From the IMG/VR virus record IMGVR_UViG_3300017963_000068, positions 1 to 52,419 of that record: DNA of 52,419 nucleotides; one strand, 5' to 3'. The position numbers and the translations under genes are program-made. The notes below the pieces were generated by a model. It was given only the letters and a program-made list of their open reading frames with translations. It was not told the DNA's origin and did no database searches. The stretch's first letter is position 1, and each line of letters opens with the position of its first letter. Positions 2,828 to 34,352 of this stretch are shown piece by piece. This stretch comes from a virus.

Positions 2828-4738
2828 CTACGGGCCTCCCCTGTAGGAGCCCGTCCTGGCGGCCTCCTGGAACGTAGTCACCAGATCGAAAACGAATCGA
2901 TCCGGATCCTCGGACTTGGCCTCGATTCGGTGGATCGTCACGTTGATCTTGGGCGGTTTCTTGAGGCCCTCGAGCTTGGGGAGGCCCTCGCCCTTCGCCG
3001 TGAGTCCGGCGGCCTGGGCGCTTTCGATCACCGCCGGGATGAATTTGCCCTCGAGCATTCGGGCAAAGTCCGCCACGGGATCCTGGGATTGACTGAGGAC
3101 GTAATCCAGGCGCGCGAAACTGGACTCGAGCGCGGCCACCGCGTAGTCCTCACCGGCCAGGCCCTTTTTCGTGGCCACACGCGCCGCCGCGCCGGCAAGC
3201 GCCTGTTGTGTCCAGGCGCCACGGTATCCGGGGAGGAGGTTTTCCTGTTTCGCATAGGTCGCGATCTGTTTGTACATGGCGCGGAGATCGTCCGCCTTGC
3301 TCGTGAGCGCTTCTGTTAGCTCCACCTCGCGGAGGTATGCCGCGGGCTCCTCCGCGCGCCAGGCGGCCATCTTCTCCGTGTAACCCGCGGCCCCCGGCGT
3401 CACGCCCCACTTGGCGCGCTCCTCCTGTAGCTTCGCCAGTTCGTCCATGCGCGCGCCGAAATGGCCCAGTTCCTTTTTCAGCTCGGGGAGGACCACCTCG
3501 CCACGTAGCGCCATGCCTTGCTCGATCCGCTTCCGCTCCTCCGCTCGGCGCTTCTCCTCGGCGCTGTGCCACCACTTGTAAAGGCCATAGAGCGCCGTCC
3601 CGGCGAGCCCGATCGCCGGCCCGAATGAGGCGAGCCTCGCCGTCACGTTGGCGATCCCGGCGCCGAACTTCGCCACGCCCAGGCCGGTTTCATTCATTTT
3701 CGCCATGAGGAGGCCGGCGCCAGCTCGGCGCGTCATGCGTCCGGCGAACCCGCCCACGGATTCGAGCATTCCTCCGGCCATGCCTCCGATCTTCCATGCG
3801 GCCCAGCCCTTGGCCACGGTGAGGAGGAGATCGGCGTGGTTCACGAAAAACGCGGCCACGTCCCGGATCAGGCCGAACACGTCCCGGAGCGTGCCGGCGA
3901 GGTTGCGGGCCATTTCGTCCACGCGATCGGTGTTCGCGGTGATCCACGTGTTCCAGCTTTTGATCTCGCTCGTGAGCGCGCGAAACATCGGCAAGCCCAC
4001 CTTGCCGAGGAAAATCTGGAGGTTGTCCTGGAACGTGGAATAGACGCCGGAAAAGCTGGTTTCCTGGGCCTTGGCCATGTTCGTGATCGCCTCGCTCGTG
4101 AGCGCGGCTTTCAGCGCGGCGGCCCTTTGTTGCTCGCTCATTTCGTTGAACGCGGCGCGGCCCTCCTCGCCGATCACGCCCATGGGCTCGAGGAGCGAGC
4201 GGGCGAAGCGATCGACAGAACGAACGCGGCCCATGAGAACGGACTCAATATCCCGCGCCGCCACCTCGGCCTCGATCCCGAACGCGCGCGCGGCCACCAC
4301 GGAGCCCGCCGTGATGTCCTCCAGATCCTTCATGCTCAGGCCCGCTTGCATGATCGGGCGGACGATGTTCGAGGCCATGGCCACCATGTCCGCCGTGGTC
4401 CCCACCGATCGCTTTGCGCGCTCCTGGAGTTGCCCCACGAGATCCACGGACTGTTCCATGGATTGAGTCCAGCCCTGGCCGGTGGTGAGCGAGATCATAC
4501 CGGCCATCTGGACGCGCGCCTGTTCCATGTTCGCGTTGAAACCCACGAGGGCTTTCCAGCCCGCGCGCGCTCCGAAGTAGGCGCCAGCTCCGGCCGCAAC
4601 CTTGCCCCACGCGGAGGACAGGAGCCCGGAGGACTTCGAGGCTTTCTCCACGTTCTGAGTCATGGTCCGCAAGCCTTTGGAGGCTTTGTCCTCCATGAGG
4701 TAGCGGAGCCGGATATCGTACATGGTAGTTTGGGCCAC
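2828..4738 (-). CDS. Tail tape measure protein
   Basis: A 636-residue protein directly after the frameshifting tail chaperone genes, the diagnostic position of the tape measure. It starts MAQTTMYDIRLRYLMEDKASKGL, has an N-terminal coiled-coil-like region, and has a Gly/Ala-rich hydrophobic stretch around residues 300-390 of the kind that can insert into membrane during ejection. Tape measure length sets tail length at roughly 0.15 nm per residue, so a tail near 95 nm is expected (inference). It is short for a myovirus. Confidence 0.85.
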   Translation of the reverse strand: MAQTTMYDIRLRYLMEDKASKGLRTMTQNVEKASKSSGLLSSAWGKVAAGAGAYFGARAGWKALVGFNANMEQARVQMAGMISLTTGQGWTQSMEQSVDLVGQLQERAKRSVGTTADMVAMASNIVRPIMQAGLSMKDLEDITAGSVVAARAFGIEAEVAARDIESVLMGRVRSVDRFARSLLEPMGVIGEEGRAAFNEMSEQQRAAALKAALTSEAITNMAKAQETSFSGVYSTFQDNLQIFLGKVGLPMFRALTSEIKSWNTWITANTDRVDEMARNLAGTLRDVFGLIRDVAAFFVNHADLLLTVAKGWAAWKIGGMAGGMLESVGGFAGRMTRRAGAGLLMAKMNETGLGVAKFGAGIANVTARLASFGPAIGLAGTALYGLYKWWHSAEEKRRAEERKRIEQGMALRGEVVLPELKKELGHFGARMDELAKLQEERAKWGVTPGAAGYTEKMAAWRAEEPAAYLREVELTEALTSKADDLRAMYKQIATYAKQENLLPGYRGAWTQQALAGAAARVATKKGLAGEDYAVAALESSFARLDYVLSQSQDPVADFARMLEGKFIPAVIESAQAAGLTAKGEGLPKLEGLKKPPKINVTIHRIEAKSEDPDRFVFDLVTTFQEAARTGSYRGGP

Positions 4739-26155: not shown

Positions 26156-26529
26156 CGCTTGCGCTTCTCCCCTCGGTTGCTATGCGGAACGCCCGGTGGC
26201 CGGATCAGCTTTTCGCACGCGGCCAGGTGGCGCTCGAGGTTCGCATTGATCCGATCGAGCTTTTCGCACGCGGCCTCGAGGAGCTGGAGGACTCGCTCGG
26301 CGTCCCGGTGGTGCCACGCCTGGGGAATGAACAAGCGAACGCCGGCGGCCTGGGCGGCCTCCTCCGCGCGCCGAACACACCCACAGTGATACATGGGGCC
26401 TAGTGTCCGGCCGAATCCGTCCCCGGTTACGCCGGGGATCGATTGCCAGGCGGCCCACTCCTTGGCCGGCATGGGCTCGCCGCAATCCTCACAACGCGGC
26501 GGCGGCCTGGTGGTGCTTTCCTCGCTCAT
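26152..26529 (-). CDS. Zinc-ribbon protein with C-terminal coiled coil
   Basis: A 125-residue protein from ATG 26529. CEDCGEPM at residues 13-20 and CGCVRR near 50 resemble a DksA/TraR-like or generic zinc ribbon, followed by a long helix with heptads (ERVLQLLEAACEKLDRINA). Overlaps the deoxyribosyltransferase-like gene by 4 bp. Confidence 0.55.
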   Translation of the reverse strand: MSEESTTRPPPRCEDCGEPMPAKEWAAWQSIPGVTGDGFGRTLGPMYHCGCVRRAEEAAQAAGVRLFIPQAWHHRDAERVLQLLEAACEKLDRINANLERHLAACEKLIRPPGVPHSNRGEKRKR

Positions 26530-26927
26530 GGTTTGAACTCCGGATCGTCCGGTTCCTGTCCCGGCGGGACGGTTGCGAGGGGAACCAGCGGAGGCTCCGC
26601 TCCCAGCGCCGTGAGGTCCAGGACGCGGACTCCGTGGGCCTTGGCGTGTTCCGCCTCGAGCGCCATTCCGCCGGACACGCGGCCACCCACAAGCCACACG
26701 GCGTCGACGCGCTCGAGGATCGCAAGGTCGTGGGCGAGGCCCATTTGACGATCGGCCGGGTTGCTATCGTCCAGGATTTCGCAGTCCAGGATCCAGTTTG
26801 CCACCACGGCCGTGCCGGGTTTCGTCCGGTAGATCCACAGGAGCCAGCGCCGCGCGCGGGCGAGGTTCGCCTCCACGTCACCGGATACCGGGTGGGCCAT
26901 GTAGATCACGCGCTCCGAGGCTTTCAC
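26526..26927 (-). CDS. Nucleoside 2-deoxyribosyltransferase-like (DUF4406-type) protein
   Basis: A 133-residue Rossmann-like protein. It opens VIYMAHPVSGDVEANLARA, the substrate-loop pattern of the family, and has AILERVDAVWLVGGRVSGGMALEAEHA, where the Glu near EAEHA is the usual nucleophile region. Relatives cleave or transfer the base of deoxynucleosides or nucleotides, so it may shape the nucleotide pool during infection. The sequence family is diverse and activity is not certain. GTG start 26927. Confidence 0.6.
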   Translation of the reverse strand: MKASERVIYMAHPVSGDVEANLARARRWLLWIYRTKPGTAVVANWILDCEILDDSNPADRQMGLAHDLAILERVDAVWLVGGRVSGGMALEAEHAKAHGVRVLDLTALGAEPPLVPLATVPPGQEPDDPEFKP

Positions 26928-27982: not shown

Positions 27983-28846
27983 CTAGTCCTCCTCCGGCGC
28001 TCGAGCTTCCCCAGCTCCTCGAGGTTCCCATCCGCGAGCTGGTGGCGCTGTGCCGATGTCAAGGGTGAGCTGATCGGCGCGCGGCGCCGGCGCCCTCGAG
28101 GGAAACAGCTCGGGCTGATAACGCGCCTCCTCGAATCGCTTTCGTGCGATCTCCGCATAGGTCGGATCCACCTCGAATCCCATGGAATGGCGGCCCAGGC
28201 GCTTCGCGGCCACGCTCGTGGTGCCGGAGCCCGCGAACGGATCGAGAATCGATTCCTCGGGATCGGTGAAGTCCCGGACTAAATTCTCGAGGAGGGCGAG
28301 CGGTTTCTGGGTTGTATGCAAGCGGGCGCCGTTGTGGCCGCGGTCCAGAACGATCGGGTGAGTCCAAACGGCGTGCCGCCCTCCACCGTTCCAGTGCAAC
28401 CGGCCCCCGTTTGGCCGCGGAGCGTGAGCGATCACGATCACCTCATGGCCTACGGCGGGACGATCGCCGGAAAATTGCGGCGTGGCGCCCAGCTTGATCC
28501 ACACGCCGAACCGGACGAACTCGGCGCCGGCGGCCTCGAGCGCTTCGCGCCATGCCTGGCCGCCCTCGTGATCGCAGAACACCAGGATCCAGCGCCGGCA
28601 CACGCGCGCCAGCTCGAGCGCCACGCGCGATCGAAGCTCGTCCGTGAGGGGAGCGAAACCTAGATCGCGGACTCGGTGAAACTGGGCTCCGGTGGCGTTC
28701 GGCCTCGAGGGCTCGCGATACCCGGTGCAACCTCGGCGCCCGGCCTCATGGACGTGGGGCGAATACGGCGGATCGGTGATCGCGTGATCAATGCAGCGAT
28801 CGCGGAGCTGGTGGAGGAGCGCCAGGCATTCTCCGCATAGGATCAT
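27983..28846 (-). CDS. DNA N4/N6 (amino) methyltransferase, beta class
   Basis: A 287-residue enzyme with the catalytic DPPY at 25-28 and the AdoMet motif DPFAGSG at 202-208. That order (DPPY first) defines the beta class. TQKPLALLENLVRDFTDP (179-196) is the family's motif X region. No endonuclease is adjacent, so it is an orphan enzyme that may protect phage DNA from host restriction or regulate it. The stop lies just before the RusA start. Confidence 0.85.
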   Translation of the reverse strand: MILCGECLALLHQLRDRCIDHAITDPPYSPHVHEAGRRGCTGYREPSRPNATGAQFHRVRDLGFAPLTDELRSRVALELARVCRRWILVFCDHEGGQAWREALEAAGAEFVRFGVWIKLGATPQFSGDRPAVGHEVIVIAHAPRPNGGRLHWNGGGRHAVWTHPIVLDRGHNGARLHTTQKPLALLENLVRDFTDPEESILDPFAGSGTTSVAAKRLGRHSMGFEVDPTYAEIARKRFEEARYQPELFPSRAPAPRADQLTLDIGTAPPARGWEPRGAGEARAPEED

Positions 28847-31636: not shown

Positions 31637-31963
31637 CTAATCCTCCTCGATCGGCTCGAACGGTGCCCCCATTGTCCACGCTCGGAGTGACACGTCCCAG
31701 ATGAGCCAATGGGAGGCGAGGTTCGGGCGGGTTTCCGCAACGCTACCGTCGACGGCGCGCGCCGTCACGATCCGCTTGCGGCCCTTGCGGGATCCGTTTC
31801 GCGTCACCTCGAACACGCGCGCGATCGGCTGATCGCCCCTCGGGGTGGCGCCGGTCAATACGGCGTCGATTTGAATGTGGCGCGCTGGGAGCCCGCCTCC
31901 GCGGCGCACGCGGAACACCTGGCCGCGCTTGACGGCGATCCGGATCGCTTCGCGGCGAGCCAT
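31637..31963 (-). CDS. Small beta-rich basic protein, unknown
   Basis: A 108-residue protein from ATG 31963 (TAATG overlap), basic in the first 75 residues (GSRKGRKRIVTARAV) with alternating beta pattern, then an acidic end. It is transcribed directly after the TGT-like gene and could be a nucleic-acid-binding partner. Confidence 0.5.
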   Translation of the reverse strand: MARREAIRIAVKRGQVFRVRRGGGLPARHIQIDAVLTGATPRGDQPIARVFEVTRNGSRKGRKRIVTARAVDGSVAETRPNLASHWLIWDVSLRAWTMGAPFEPIEED

Positions 31964-33915
31964 TAGCGCTCCCCCTCGCGACTTTCCGCGTCCTCCCAGT
32001 GAGCGGCTCCGAGGCCCACGGCTTGCTCGAGCTTGCCCAGCTCGTCCGCGAAATGGTGAGCGCAACGCGGCCCGATCGGATAGAAACCGACATCCGCCGG
32101 ATCGTTCTCCGGCCCCTCGTATCCGGCGGGCGCGAACGCGGCGCCGCCGTCGATCACGTGGAGGTAGATCGTATCCGCGCGCTCCTCCACGTTCGTGCCG
32201 CAAAAGCAACATTCCATTCCCTGGCCCTCGAACTTGCGACAACGCGGCCCGCCGGTGGCCTCATGCTGGCCGTTGAACGGAACCAGGCCCAGGCGGCCCT
32301 CCGGCGTGTATTCGCTCGCGAAGTAGATCGCCGCGGCGGCGCATTCCATGGCCTCCTTGCGCGCGCGGTTCTCGTGGCACGTGATCCCGCCGTCGCAGTC
32401 CTCGCCGTTCGGGTGGCACAGCCACTCGTGGCATTCGGTCACGGTATCCAGCGGGGATCCCTTGAGGAGGATTTCCAGGGCCTCCTCCGCGAGCTTGCGG
32501 ATCGCGTCCACGTAGAAACGAACCTGGGATCCGAGGGCGTGGCCAGGCCTGCGCGGCCCGGGCTCCGGTTCCTGGGAGCGAATCCACTCCAGGCCCTCGC
32601 GCATGGTGTCGAAGCTCCGGCCGGAGCTTGAGGCCATGCCGCGCCCTGTGGTGCCGAAAGGTCCCCACCGGCGCTCCCCCCACATGGGATTCGTTTCGGC
32701 GTTTTTTCCGAACAGGTGGCCGTGGTAGTAATAATCGGCGTCCGACACGTCATCCTCCCCGGGCGTTGCTATGCGGAGGGCGCCGTGAACCATGCGGGCC
32801 GTGTCGCCGGCGGCCACGCGCTCGCGGACGCCCTGGAGGAGCCTCGGCGGGACGTGTTCGAGGATCTGAATCACGGAGGCGCCGCGCTTGCGGGTGTCGA
32901 ATCCGTAAGCGTTGATCGCGTTCGCGATGTTCGCGCACACGCGCGGCGTGCGCGGCCCAGGGCGGCGCGTGTCCGCCTGGACGATCACGGGCTCCACCGG
33001 AGGCTCCGGCCGCTTGTGGCCGTTGTCCGCGTTCCGGAGCGCCAGGATCACGCCGGCGGCCTTGCGGGTTTGAGTGTCGCCGGCAAGCTCGCCACGCTCC
33101 ACCATGCCATTGACGATCGTTGCGGCGGCGGTGAGGTGACGGGGGCCGCCGTTCGGCCCGTTGGTTTTCCCCGCCAGGCGCGCGACCACACACGAGTCCA
33201 TTTGAACCATGGTGATAGGGCAAGCGGAGGCGATTCGGGACAGGATCTCCTTGGCTTTGCGCCCTCGAGGTCCTAGGCCCAGCAAGTGAAGCACAACGGG
33301 CTGAACGGTGGCCACGAACTCCTCGGCCTCCTTGGGTGAGGTGGCCGCGGCTTGACACGGAAGCGCCGGGATCGGCGCGAATCCCAGAACGTCGACACAG
33401 CGCTTGAAAAAGCTCGCTTGCTTGAACGCGCCACGTTGAACCGGCATGAGAACGCGCACGCCCATGGCGTCCAGCTCGCGCATGTCCTCGGCGTAGCGCT
33501 CGAGGCGCGCGAGCGTTTCCGCCTGATCGCCGATCTTGTCCGGCGCTACCACGTGGAGCTGATCGCCCAGGGCGCGGCCCAGGCGCTTGTAAAGATCGAT
33601 CACGCGGGGCCAGTCGACCGGCTTGGACTTCCCTTTCAGTTCCGCCTGGAACTCGGGAAACGCGCCGCTGTCCACGAACACCTGAACGTCAGTCCCCACA
33701 AGCTCGAGGATCTCCGCTTCGATGTCCGCGTTGACGTTCGCCGCGGTCACGCCCACGTCATGGCCGATCGCGCCGAACCCGCGGACTTCGCCGCGCTGGC
33801 ATCCGCTCGCGAAGTAGGCGATCGGATCCAGCGGAAGCTCCGGCGCCGGTTGCGCCGGGATCGGGAAGTCCACGCCCTCGAGCAATTCCACCAGCTCGTA
33901 AGCGGGGCGAGTCAT
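31963..33915 (-). CDS. TGT/DpdA-like base-exchange enzyme domain with Cys-rich C-terminal half
   Basis: A 650-residue protein. Residues 30-250 look like the TIM barrel of tRNA-guanine transglycosylase relatives such as DpdA, which swaps guanine for a 7-deazaguanine in DNA. Supporting motifs are DSGAF (82-86, cf. DSGGF of TGT), APDKIGD (124-130), MPVQRG (157-162), LHLLGLGP (209-216) and MVQMDS (237-242) with a possible nucleophilic Asp240. The C-terminal 300 residues are not recognised; they contain two Cys/His clusters (around 490-530 and 570-590). No preQ0 synthesis genes are in this genome. Start ATG 33915, ATGA overlap. Confidence 0.6.
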   Translation of the reverse strand: MTRPAYELVELLEGVDFPIPAQPAPELPLDPIAYFASGCQRGEVRGFGAIGHDVGVTAANVNADIEAEILELVGTDVQVFVDSGAFPEFQAELKGKSKPVDWPRVIDLYKRLGRALGDQLHVVAPDKIGDQAETLARLERYAEDMRELDAMGVRVLMPVQRGAFKQASFFKRCVDVLGFAPIPALPCQAAATSPKEAEEFVATVQPVVLHLLGLGPRGRKAKEILSRIASACPITMVQMDSCVVARLAGKTNGPNGGPRHLTAAATIVNGMVERGELAGDTQTRKAAGVILALRNADNGHKRPEPPVEPVIVQADTRRPGPRTPRVCANIANAINAYGFDTRKRGASVIQILEHVPPRLLQGVRERVAAGDTARMVHGALRIATPGEDDVSDADYYYHGHLFGKNAETNPMWGERRWGPFGTTGRGMASSSGRSFDTMREGLEWIRSQEPEPGPRRPGHALGSQVRFYVDAIRKLAEEALEILLKGSPLDTVTECHEWLCHPNGEDCDGGITCHENRARKEAMECAAAAIYFASEYTPEGRLGLVPFNGQHEATGGPRCRKFEGQGMECCFCGTNVEERADTIYLHVIDGGAAFAPAGYEGPENDPADVGFYPIGPRCAHHFADELGKLEQAVGLGAAHWEDAESREGER

Positions 33916-34181
33916 CGGCTCACCACCTTGAAACCGAGGGCGTGGAGAACGCGGACGGTGTGGGCGGCGCCGCCGGAGAACTCGCGCGCGCTCAGGCCGC
34001 ACGCCACGCCGAGGATCGCCTTGGACGGGTAGAGGTTCCCGCCGAACGCGAGCTGGTATCGAAGCGAGGGCCGGTAACCGTGGGCGGCCAGGAACCCGTC
34101 CTGGCCCAGTGCATCGCACATGCCGATCGCCCTGATCACGTCCTCGCGGGTTGCTTCGCTGGTTCTTTTCTTGGTTTCCAT
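33912..34181 (-). CDS. Stand-alone ScoMcrA-type N-terminal head domain protein
   Basis: An 89-residue protein that matches the pattern of the N-terminal head domain of ScoMcrA, a restriction enzyme of modified DNA: AIGMCDALGQDGFLAAHG, then YPSKAILGVACG, FSGG and VLHALGFKVV. Here the domain is alone, with no sulfur-binding, SRA or HNH part. It is the first gene of an operon with the TGT-like protein and could supply DNA recognition, or act as an anti-restriction decoy. ATG 34181, start-associated sequence at 7 nt. Confidence 0.65.
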   Translation of the reverse strand: METKKRTSEATREDVIRAIGMCDALGQDGFLAAHGYRPSLRYQLAFGGNLYPSKAILGVACGLSAREFSGGAAHTVRVLHALGFKVVSR

Positions 34182-34188
34182 TTTTGCC

Positions 34189-34197
34189 TCCTGTGTC
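34189..34197 (-). repeat. Start-associated sequence GACACAGGA, copy before 34181
   Basis: Exact copy, 7 nt upstream of the ATG, about 25 bp after the -10 box of the promoter. Confidence 0.8.
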
Positions 34198-34221
34198 GCG
34201 GTTAGATCCTGTCCGCCTATT

Positions 34222-34250
34222 ATTGTAGGAACACGGTAAACCGGAGGCAA
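34222..34250 (-). promoter_or_regulatory. Sigma70-type promoter of the ScoMcrA-head/TGT operon
   Basis: Minus strand: -35 TTGCCT (34250-34245), 17-bp spacer, -10 TACAAT (34227-34222). It lies right after a terminator and 41 bp before the first gene. The 13-base operator-like sequence fills most of the spacer. Confidence 0.7.
34230..34242 (+). promoter_or_regulatory. Putative operator within the promoter spacer
   Basis: AACACGGTAAACC lies between the -35 and -10 boxes, where a bound repressor would block RNA polymerase. It matches the sequence at the start of the HTH gene at 12 of 13 bases. Confidence 0.45.
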
Positions 34251-34274
34251 GCGAAAAAGGCCACGAGCTTGCAC

Positions 34275-34309
34275 AAAAAAACGCCCCCCGCGGTTAGCGA
34301 CGGGGGGCG
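34275..34309 (-). terminator. Rho-independent terminator after the annealing-protein gene
   Basis: On the minus strand a perfect 9-bp GC stem (34301-34309 with 34282-34290, loop 10 nt) is followed at once by seven T (34281-34275). It closes the recombination operon and separates it from the promoter at 34222-34250. The 34310-34352 stretch before it shows only weak repeats. Confidence 0.9.
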
Positions 34310-34352
34310 CCATGTGGGCGGCCCGGGTGGGACCAGAAGCCCGGATCCTAGC

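Follow-up and report, generated by a model that had tools for sequence, protein, structure and literature searches.

The window analysed here is the IMG/VR record IMGVR_UViG_3300017963_000068, 52,419 bases long with 66% G+C. Its minus strand carries tail sheath, portal, head morphogenesis and terminase genes, which identify it as a contig of a contractile-tailed phage; no tRNA genes were found over its entire length.

A head-domain gene and a barrel gene in one operon

Two genes on the minus strand form the locus of interest (Table 1): the first encodes a stand-alone ScoMcrA-type head domain, and the second a TGT/DpdA-like protein. The start of gene 2 overlaps the stop of gene 1 (ATGA), and gene 1 begins at an ATG with AGGAGG upstream. 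An intrinsic terminator separates the pair from the upstream phrog_3657 gene, and between this terminator and gene 1 lies a sigma-70-like promoter, the one found in a search in which 0.3 were expected. Both signals recur in the single close phage relative, IMGVR_UViG_3300028840_002598 (G001, locus L002; hereafter the sister phage), where the terminator equivalent lies at the matching place and the promoter has identical hexamers with an 18-nt spacer. The sequence-only reading of the pair as an operon with its own terminator-separated promoter is thereby borne out. Its gene order and coordinates were also right, except that its span of 31963-34309 extended to the terminator, whereas gene 1 truly starts at 34181.

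Table 1. Positions of the features discussed, in the window and in related loci
Feature	Sequence	Positions	Strand	Details
phrog_3657 gene upstream of the pair	window	ends 34353		
Intrinsic terminator of upstream gene	window	34280..34311	minus	12-bp stem, 9 GC pairs, T tail
Sigma-70-like promoter	window	34222..34250	minus	TTGCCT-17-TACAAT, 9/12 matches
Gene 1, stand-alone ScoMcrA-type head domain	window	33912..34181	minus	89 aa
Gene 2, TGT/DpdA-like protein	window	31963..33915	minus	650 aa; ATG 33915, stop 31963-31965
Gene 2, predicted TGT/DpdA-type (beta-alpha)8 barrel	window	32998..33915	minus	residues 1-306 (barrel proper ~28-300)
Gene 2, C-terminal half	window	31966..32997	minus	residues 307-650; possible zinc modules
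N4/N6 DNA methylase gene	window	27983-28846		PF01555, E = 1.5e-25
DUF7768 protein	window	26526-26927		E = 1.7e-18
Terminator equivalent	L002	5594-5624		
Promoter	L002	5645-5674		18-nt spacer
C5-cytosine DNA methylase	L002	7281-8189		PF00145, E = 2e-44
C5 methylase	L074	2793-3836		
Barrel and InPase fusion	L109	4296-6059		PF18823
Barrel and InPase fusion	L137	4350-6596		PF18823
Barrel and DUF6884 fusion	L031	1985-3682		Vibrio coralliilyticus plasmid p380
Seemingly split barrel	L028	2507-3777		Geoalkalibacter plasmid pGSUB1
Weak head-like matches	H1-H3	~3980-4195 in two, 32232-32447 in one		Vibrio phages 10N.286.*_PE002

The product of gene 1 (METKK..VVSR) matches residues 4-90 of ScoMcrA (5ZMM) in a single-sequence search (E = 4.9e-7), and with a profile of eight phage heads this was the sole significant chain in the PDB (E = 1.8e-15). 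It also matches PADLOC mREase_IV (E = 5e-8), and its orthologue in the sister phage is 78% identical. A lone ScoMcrA head domain as first gene, as had been proposed, is thus what the locus contains: gene 1 ends after the head, and no SBD, SRA or HNH domain was found in gene 2. The pair shares with the ScoMcrA type IV restriction endonuclease the homologous N-terminal head domain; unlike that enzyme, it is without sulfur-binding, SRA and HNH domains, and its head is a separate protein. In ScoMcrA the head is a small, flexibly attached domain whose function is unknown (PMC6224610). Similar head domains borne on plasmids begin HNH endonucleases, a DUF3427 protein, a DUF3883 protein and an AAA ATPase. 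Three weak stand-alone head-like matches (E = 0.02-0.09) were seen in Vibrio phages.

The barrel of gene 2 and its conserved residues

As a single sequence, gene 2 gave no match in Pfam, NCBIfam, PADLOC or the PDB and a weak one to phrog_887 (E = 0.019), which on checking is DpdA of phages 9g, CAjan and 7-11. Of 74 clade members, 21 reach this family at E <= 0.001, weakly. When a profile of 85 relatives was aligned to 14 phage DpdAs with hhalign, the D82-D126 region gave a probability of 97 (E = 4.7e-11), against 0.1-0.2 for reversed and column-shuffled controls. A 74-row barrel profile found nothing in a sequence search of the PDB, and the claim of a TGT-type fold therefore rests on predicted structure.

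Structure prediction had been named beforehand as the test that could refute a TGT/DpdA-like second gene, and it gave a TGT-type barrel. The AF2 model from a 74-sequence alignment (pLDDT 93, pTM 0.90) has eight strands (33-36, 54-57, 79-82, 120-123, 154-158, 182-186, 208-212 and 236-241) with helices between them; a model from the two closest sequences alone was discarded (pLDDT 44). Among the Foldseek matches listed from the PDB, 50 of 50 were TGT (best E = 5.2e-8). In the VIA comparison the top row was DpdA 7UI4, 'DNA preQ0 insertase' (Z = 14.9 over 235 residues), with archaeosine TGT within 1 of it (Z = 14.0) and other TGTs at ~13-13.8; an aldolase barrel reached Z = 13.5, so TIM barrels cannot be told apart by Z score alone. 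Among viral predicted structures an ART-PolyVal-like protein ranked first, and phage queuine transferases came lower in the list. We thus regard the barrel as of predicted TGT/DpdA type, barely visible by single sequence and clear by profile comparison and predicted fold.

Positions D82, S83, A85, P125, D126, H210, L212, G213 and D240 are invariant in 74 of 74 diverse members. Position 160 is Gln in 70 of the 74 and His in two, its equivalence to the DpdA active-site His resting on alignment; this His is conserved in DpdA and absent in DpdA2. The invariance of D82, D126, H210, G213 and D240, with near-invariant Q160, argues for a working enzyme. By motif order, the barrel residues appear to match the TGT acid/base Asp, the base-recognition Asp and Gln, the glycine loop and the nucleophile Asp, and D82 and D240 would be the catalytic acid/base and the nucleophile, an assignment from motif order and not from a superposed active site. 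The equivalences other than that of the nucleophile we presume from alignment. In TGT the nucleophile is Asp280 (PMC3660597). The base-recognition loop of the clade reads G/A-I/L-P-S/C-N/K, as against GG in DpdA and TGT. No conserved Cys corresponding to the three-Cys/one-His zinc site of tRNA TGT was found among 74-85 barrel members, and the gene 2 protein has no CxCxxC after strand 8.

Compared with DpdA (7UI4; phages 9g, CAjan and 7-11), gene 2 has the predicted TGT-type barrel, the phage setting and the motif order DSGAF..PD.IGD..HGxG..DS. It differs in being ~20% identical, in having Gln for the DpdA His and a different G/A-x-P loop, and in possessing a head-domain partner and a large C-terminal extension; the weak phrog_887 match places it beyond the DpdA families or on their margin. 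With tRNA TGT it shares the predicted barrel fold and, by motif order, the catalytic Asp pair and Gln, but it lacks the zinc site, has no PDB sequence match by profile and has DNA-linked partners. These features bear on whether the enzyme could instead act on tRNA, be it of the host or the phage, or on some other RNA, and so alter decoding during infection. Such a role would fit a predicted fold equally close to tRNA TGT and DpdA, and a Q160 as in tRNA TGT. However, the missing Cys zinc site, a partner domain derived from a DNA restriction enzyme, DNA recombination genes as neighbours and a window without tRNA genes all speak against it, and we consider it quite unlikely.

The C-terminal half was only partly as described by the sequence-only reading. 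A distinct C-terminal half is present (residues 306-650), but it is not Cys-rich throughout: the cysteines are confined to ~495-618, in clusters at ~495-525 and ~559-618 that are possible zinc modules. Compared with the sister phage protein, residues 306-480 are an insertion without relation to it, and in a two-sequence comparison the two C-terminal halves are nearly entirely different save for a 36-residue Cys-containing stretch (E = 6e-8). This half had no Pfam match and, by peptide patterns, no relative among IMG/VR viral contigs.

The wider barrel family and the head-barrel pairing

The barrel of the sister phage is 76% identical to that of the window. A tblastn search of the phage collection found no sequence relative, and a first genome scan with a two-row profile found nothing. 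Remote homologues were detected by tblastn on megaplasmids of Pseudomonas, Cupriavidus, Alteromonas, Vibrio and others, and a profile of these identified 30 loci in bacterial genome assemblies and retrieved 80 of 100 confirmed viral loci. The clade is broad, reaching across environmental phages (~100 viral contigs found in one scan) and bacterial megaplasmids, and has no Pfam or NCBIfam model. Its barrels occur alone (~260-300 aa), in mid-size proteins and within open frames that reach ~3,500 aa. In Cupriavidus the barrel is fused to an LPD1 protein. On Vibrio coralliilyticus plasmid p380 it is fused to a DUF6884 domain whose additional match to PF03883 (YaaA/DpdC superfamily; E = 2.5e-6) falls just short of the Pfam cut-off; no DUF6884 domain was found in the remaining family loci.

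Two further arrangements were observed. In L109 and L137 the barrel is fused to a phage-type inorganic pyrophosphatase (InPase), on opposite sides of the barrel, and on a Geoalkalibacter plasmid it is seemingly split over two adjacent ORFs, by a frameshift or a true split.

Distant members inside very long proteins, and the LPD1 and InPase fusions, recall the polyvalent proteins of phages and conjugative elements, whereas the window protein is short and two-part. No mention of TGT came up in a term search of the polyvalent-protein paper.

When all ORFs of 111 loci were searched with a head-domain HMM, matches were confined to two kinds of locus. The first is the pair of adjacent genes for head and barrel in the window and the sister phage; in the second, that of six distinct relatives represented by eight contigs (L067-L069, L070, L071, L072, L073 and L077), a single protein carries the head fused N-terminally to the barrel. 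The gene-neighbour conservation in other phages that had been proposed as a check is therefore present, in both forms. Because of the fusions the pairing is real, and chance adjacency of the two genes is ruled out. In the tree, the five rows with the fusion have a clade of their own, as do the two rows with adjacent genes, and these seven group together with support of 94/72, which is below the starred level. The pairing is probably ancestral, judging from these sequences.

The fusions also bear on the earlier suggestion that the pair neutralises a modification-dependent host nuclease. The head might serve as an anti-restriction decoy, poisoning type IV enzymes of the ScoMcrA kind and standing beside the exchanger only because both belong to counter-defence; a stand-alone head in the window and the sister phage, and plasmid heads that begin HNH endonucleases and helicase-like proteins, would be consistent with this. 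However, fusion in six distinct relatives points to a shared task and speaks for a helper or targeting function rather than a decoy. Furthermore, dimer contacts in ScoMcrA are not mediated by the head (PMC6224610), which makes it a poor interface to poison. We consider the decoy the least likely of the readings weighed here, and the suggestion of nuclease neutralisation is not upheld.

Proposed base exchange in phage DNA

In the window, the sister phage and L067 the genes stand in a common order: a YqaJ exonuclease comes first, followed by one further gene (RecT in L067, phrog_3657 in the window) and, after it, head and barrel. YqaJ and RecT of L067 and YqaJ of the window are Pfam-confirmed, and the genes of the sister phage were read from sequence. 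The context of the locus is thus phage DNA metabolism.

The absence of 7-deazaguanine synthesis genes noted by the sequence-only reading held for the types covered: profiles for QueC and QueD-type (PTPS) genes found none in 21 records, several of them fragmentary, and Rfam gave no preQ1 or other riboswitches.

We propose, with a probability of roughly 0.55, that the operon is a two-part DNA base-exchange module in which a DpdA-like enzyme and the head protect phage DNA using a host-supplied 7-deazaguanine. This proposal builds on the head homology, the predicted TGT-type fold, the invariant TGT-like residues, the head-enzyme association and the co-transcription signals. We infer that the barrel protein would act as a DpdA-like transglycosylase on guanosine in phage DNA, the conserved Asp (D240 by motif order) attacking the deoxyribose so that guanine leaves and a 7-deazaguanine of the preQ0/preQ1 class enters in its place. 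As no preQ0 synthesis genes were found, the base would be supplied by the queuosine pathway of the host or be taken up. The head protein would work with the enzyme as a partner or targeting module, most likely by binding or delivering DNA, and the phage DNA, once modified, would withstand restriction by the host.

There is precedent for this scheme: DpdA installs preQ0 in phage DNA and thereby protects it, DpdA-dependent modification blocks restriction enzymes, and the 76 phages with DpdA but without preQ0 genes were the largest group in a 2019 survey (PMC6884629), so that many phage DpdAs resemble gene 2 in this respect. Action on DNA is favoured by the DNA-metabolism context, the restriction-enzyme domain partner, the absence of the tRNA-TGT zinc site and the C5-methylase neighbours described below. 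It is further favoured by the family member fused to a PF03883-like domain, PF03883 being the family to which DpdC, the enzyme that turns dPreQ0 into dADG (PMC12839542), belongs. Against it stand the almost tied model-based fold scores of DpdA and tRNA TGTs, the Gln that most members have at the position apparently matching the His of phage 9g DpdA (by motif order that of the tRNA-TGT Q), and the occurrence of the DUF6884 fusion in one member only.

The transglycosylase might also install a base other than 7-deazaguanine or, acting in reverse, remove a modified base from DNA. The departure of the recognition loop from GG, the lack of 7-deazaguanine genes of the tested types in 21 records, and the occurrence of the head otherwise in enzymes acting on modified DNA would all suit this. 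Yet the conserved residue set keeps the TGT/DpdA order, and no alternative base-synthesis gene was identified beside the barrel gene; we regard this as unlikely.

Exchange of guanine for a host-supplied 7-deazaguanine thus remains our preferred reading. A wider and more tentative possibility, which we rate as less likely than not, is that an unrecognised TGT-superfamily clade, spanning environmental phages, megaplasmids and injected polyvalent proteins, does DNA base exchange, and that one branch recruited the restriction-enzyme head as a DNA-handling subunit, possibly installing a base new to DNA. The barrel proteins make up a family of probable base exchangers left unnamed by the main annotation libraries (Pfam, NCBIfam), and the head-barrel fusion offers the first hint of a functional partner for the ScoMcrA head domain, whose role becomes testable.

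Other genes for DNA modification were observed near the barrel or elsewhere in the phage. A C5-cytosine DNA methylase gene directly follows the barrel gene of the sister phage and is absent at the corresponding place in the window; in L074 the barrel gene and a C5 methylase are 1-2 kb apart. The window itself carries an N4/N6 DNA methylase gene, a possible second DNA-modification function of the phage, and a DUF7768 protein, which may have a nucleoside 2-deoxyribosyltransferase-like fold and could then bear on nucleotide supply.
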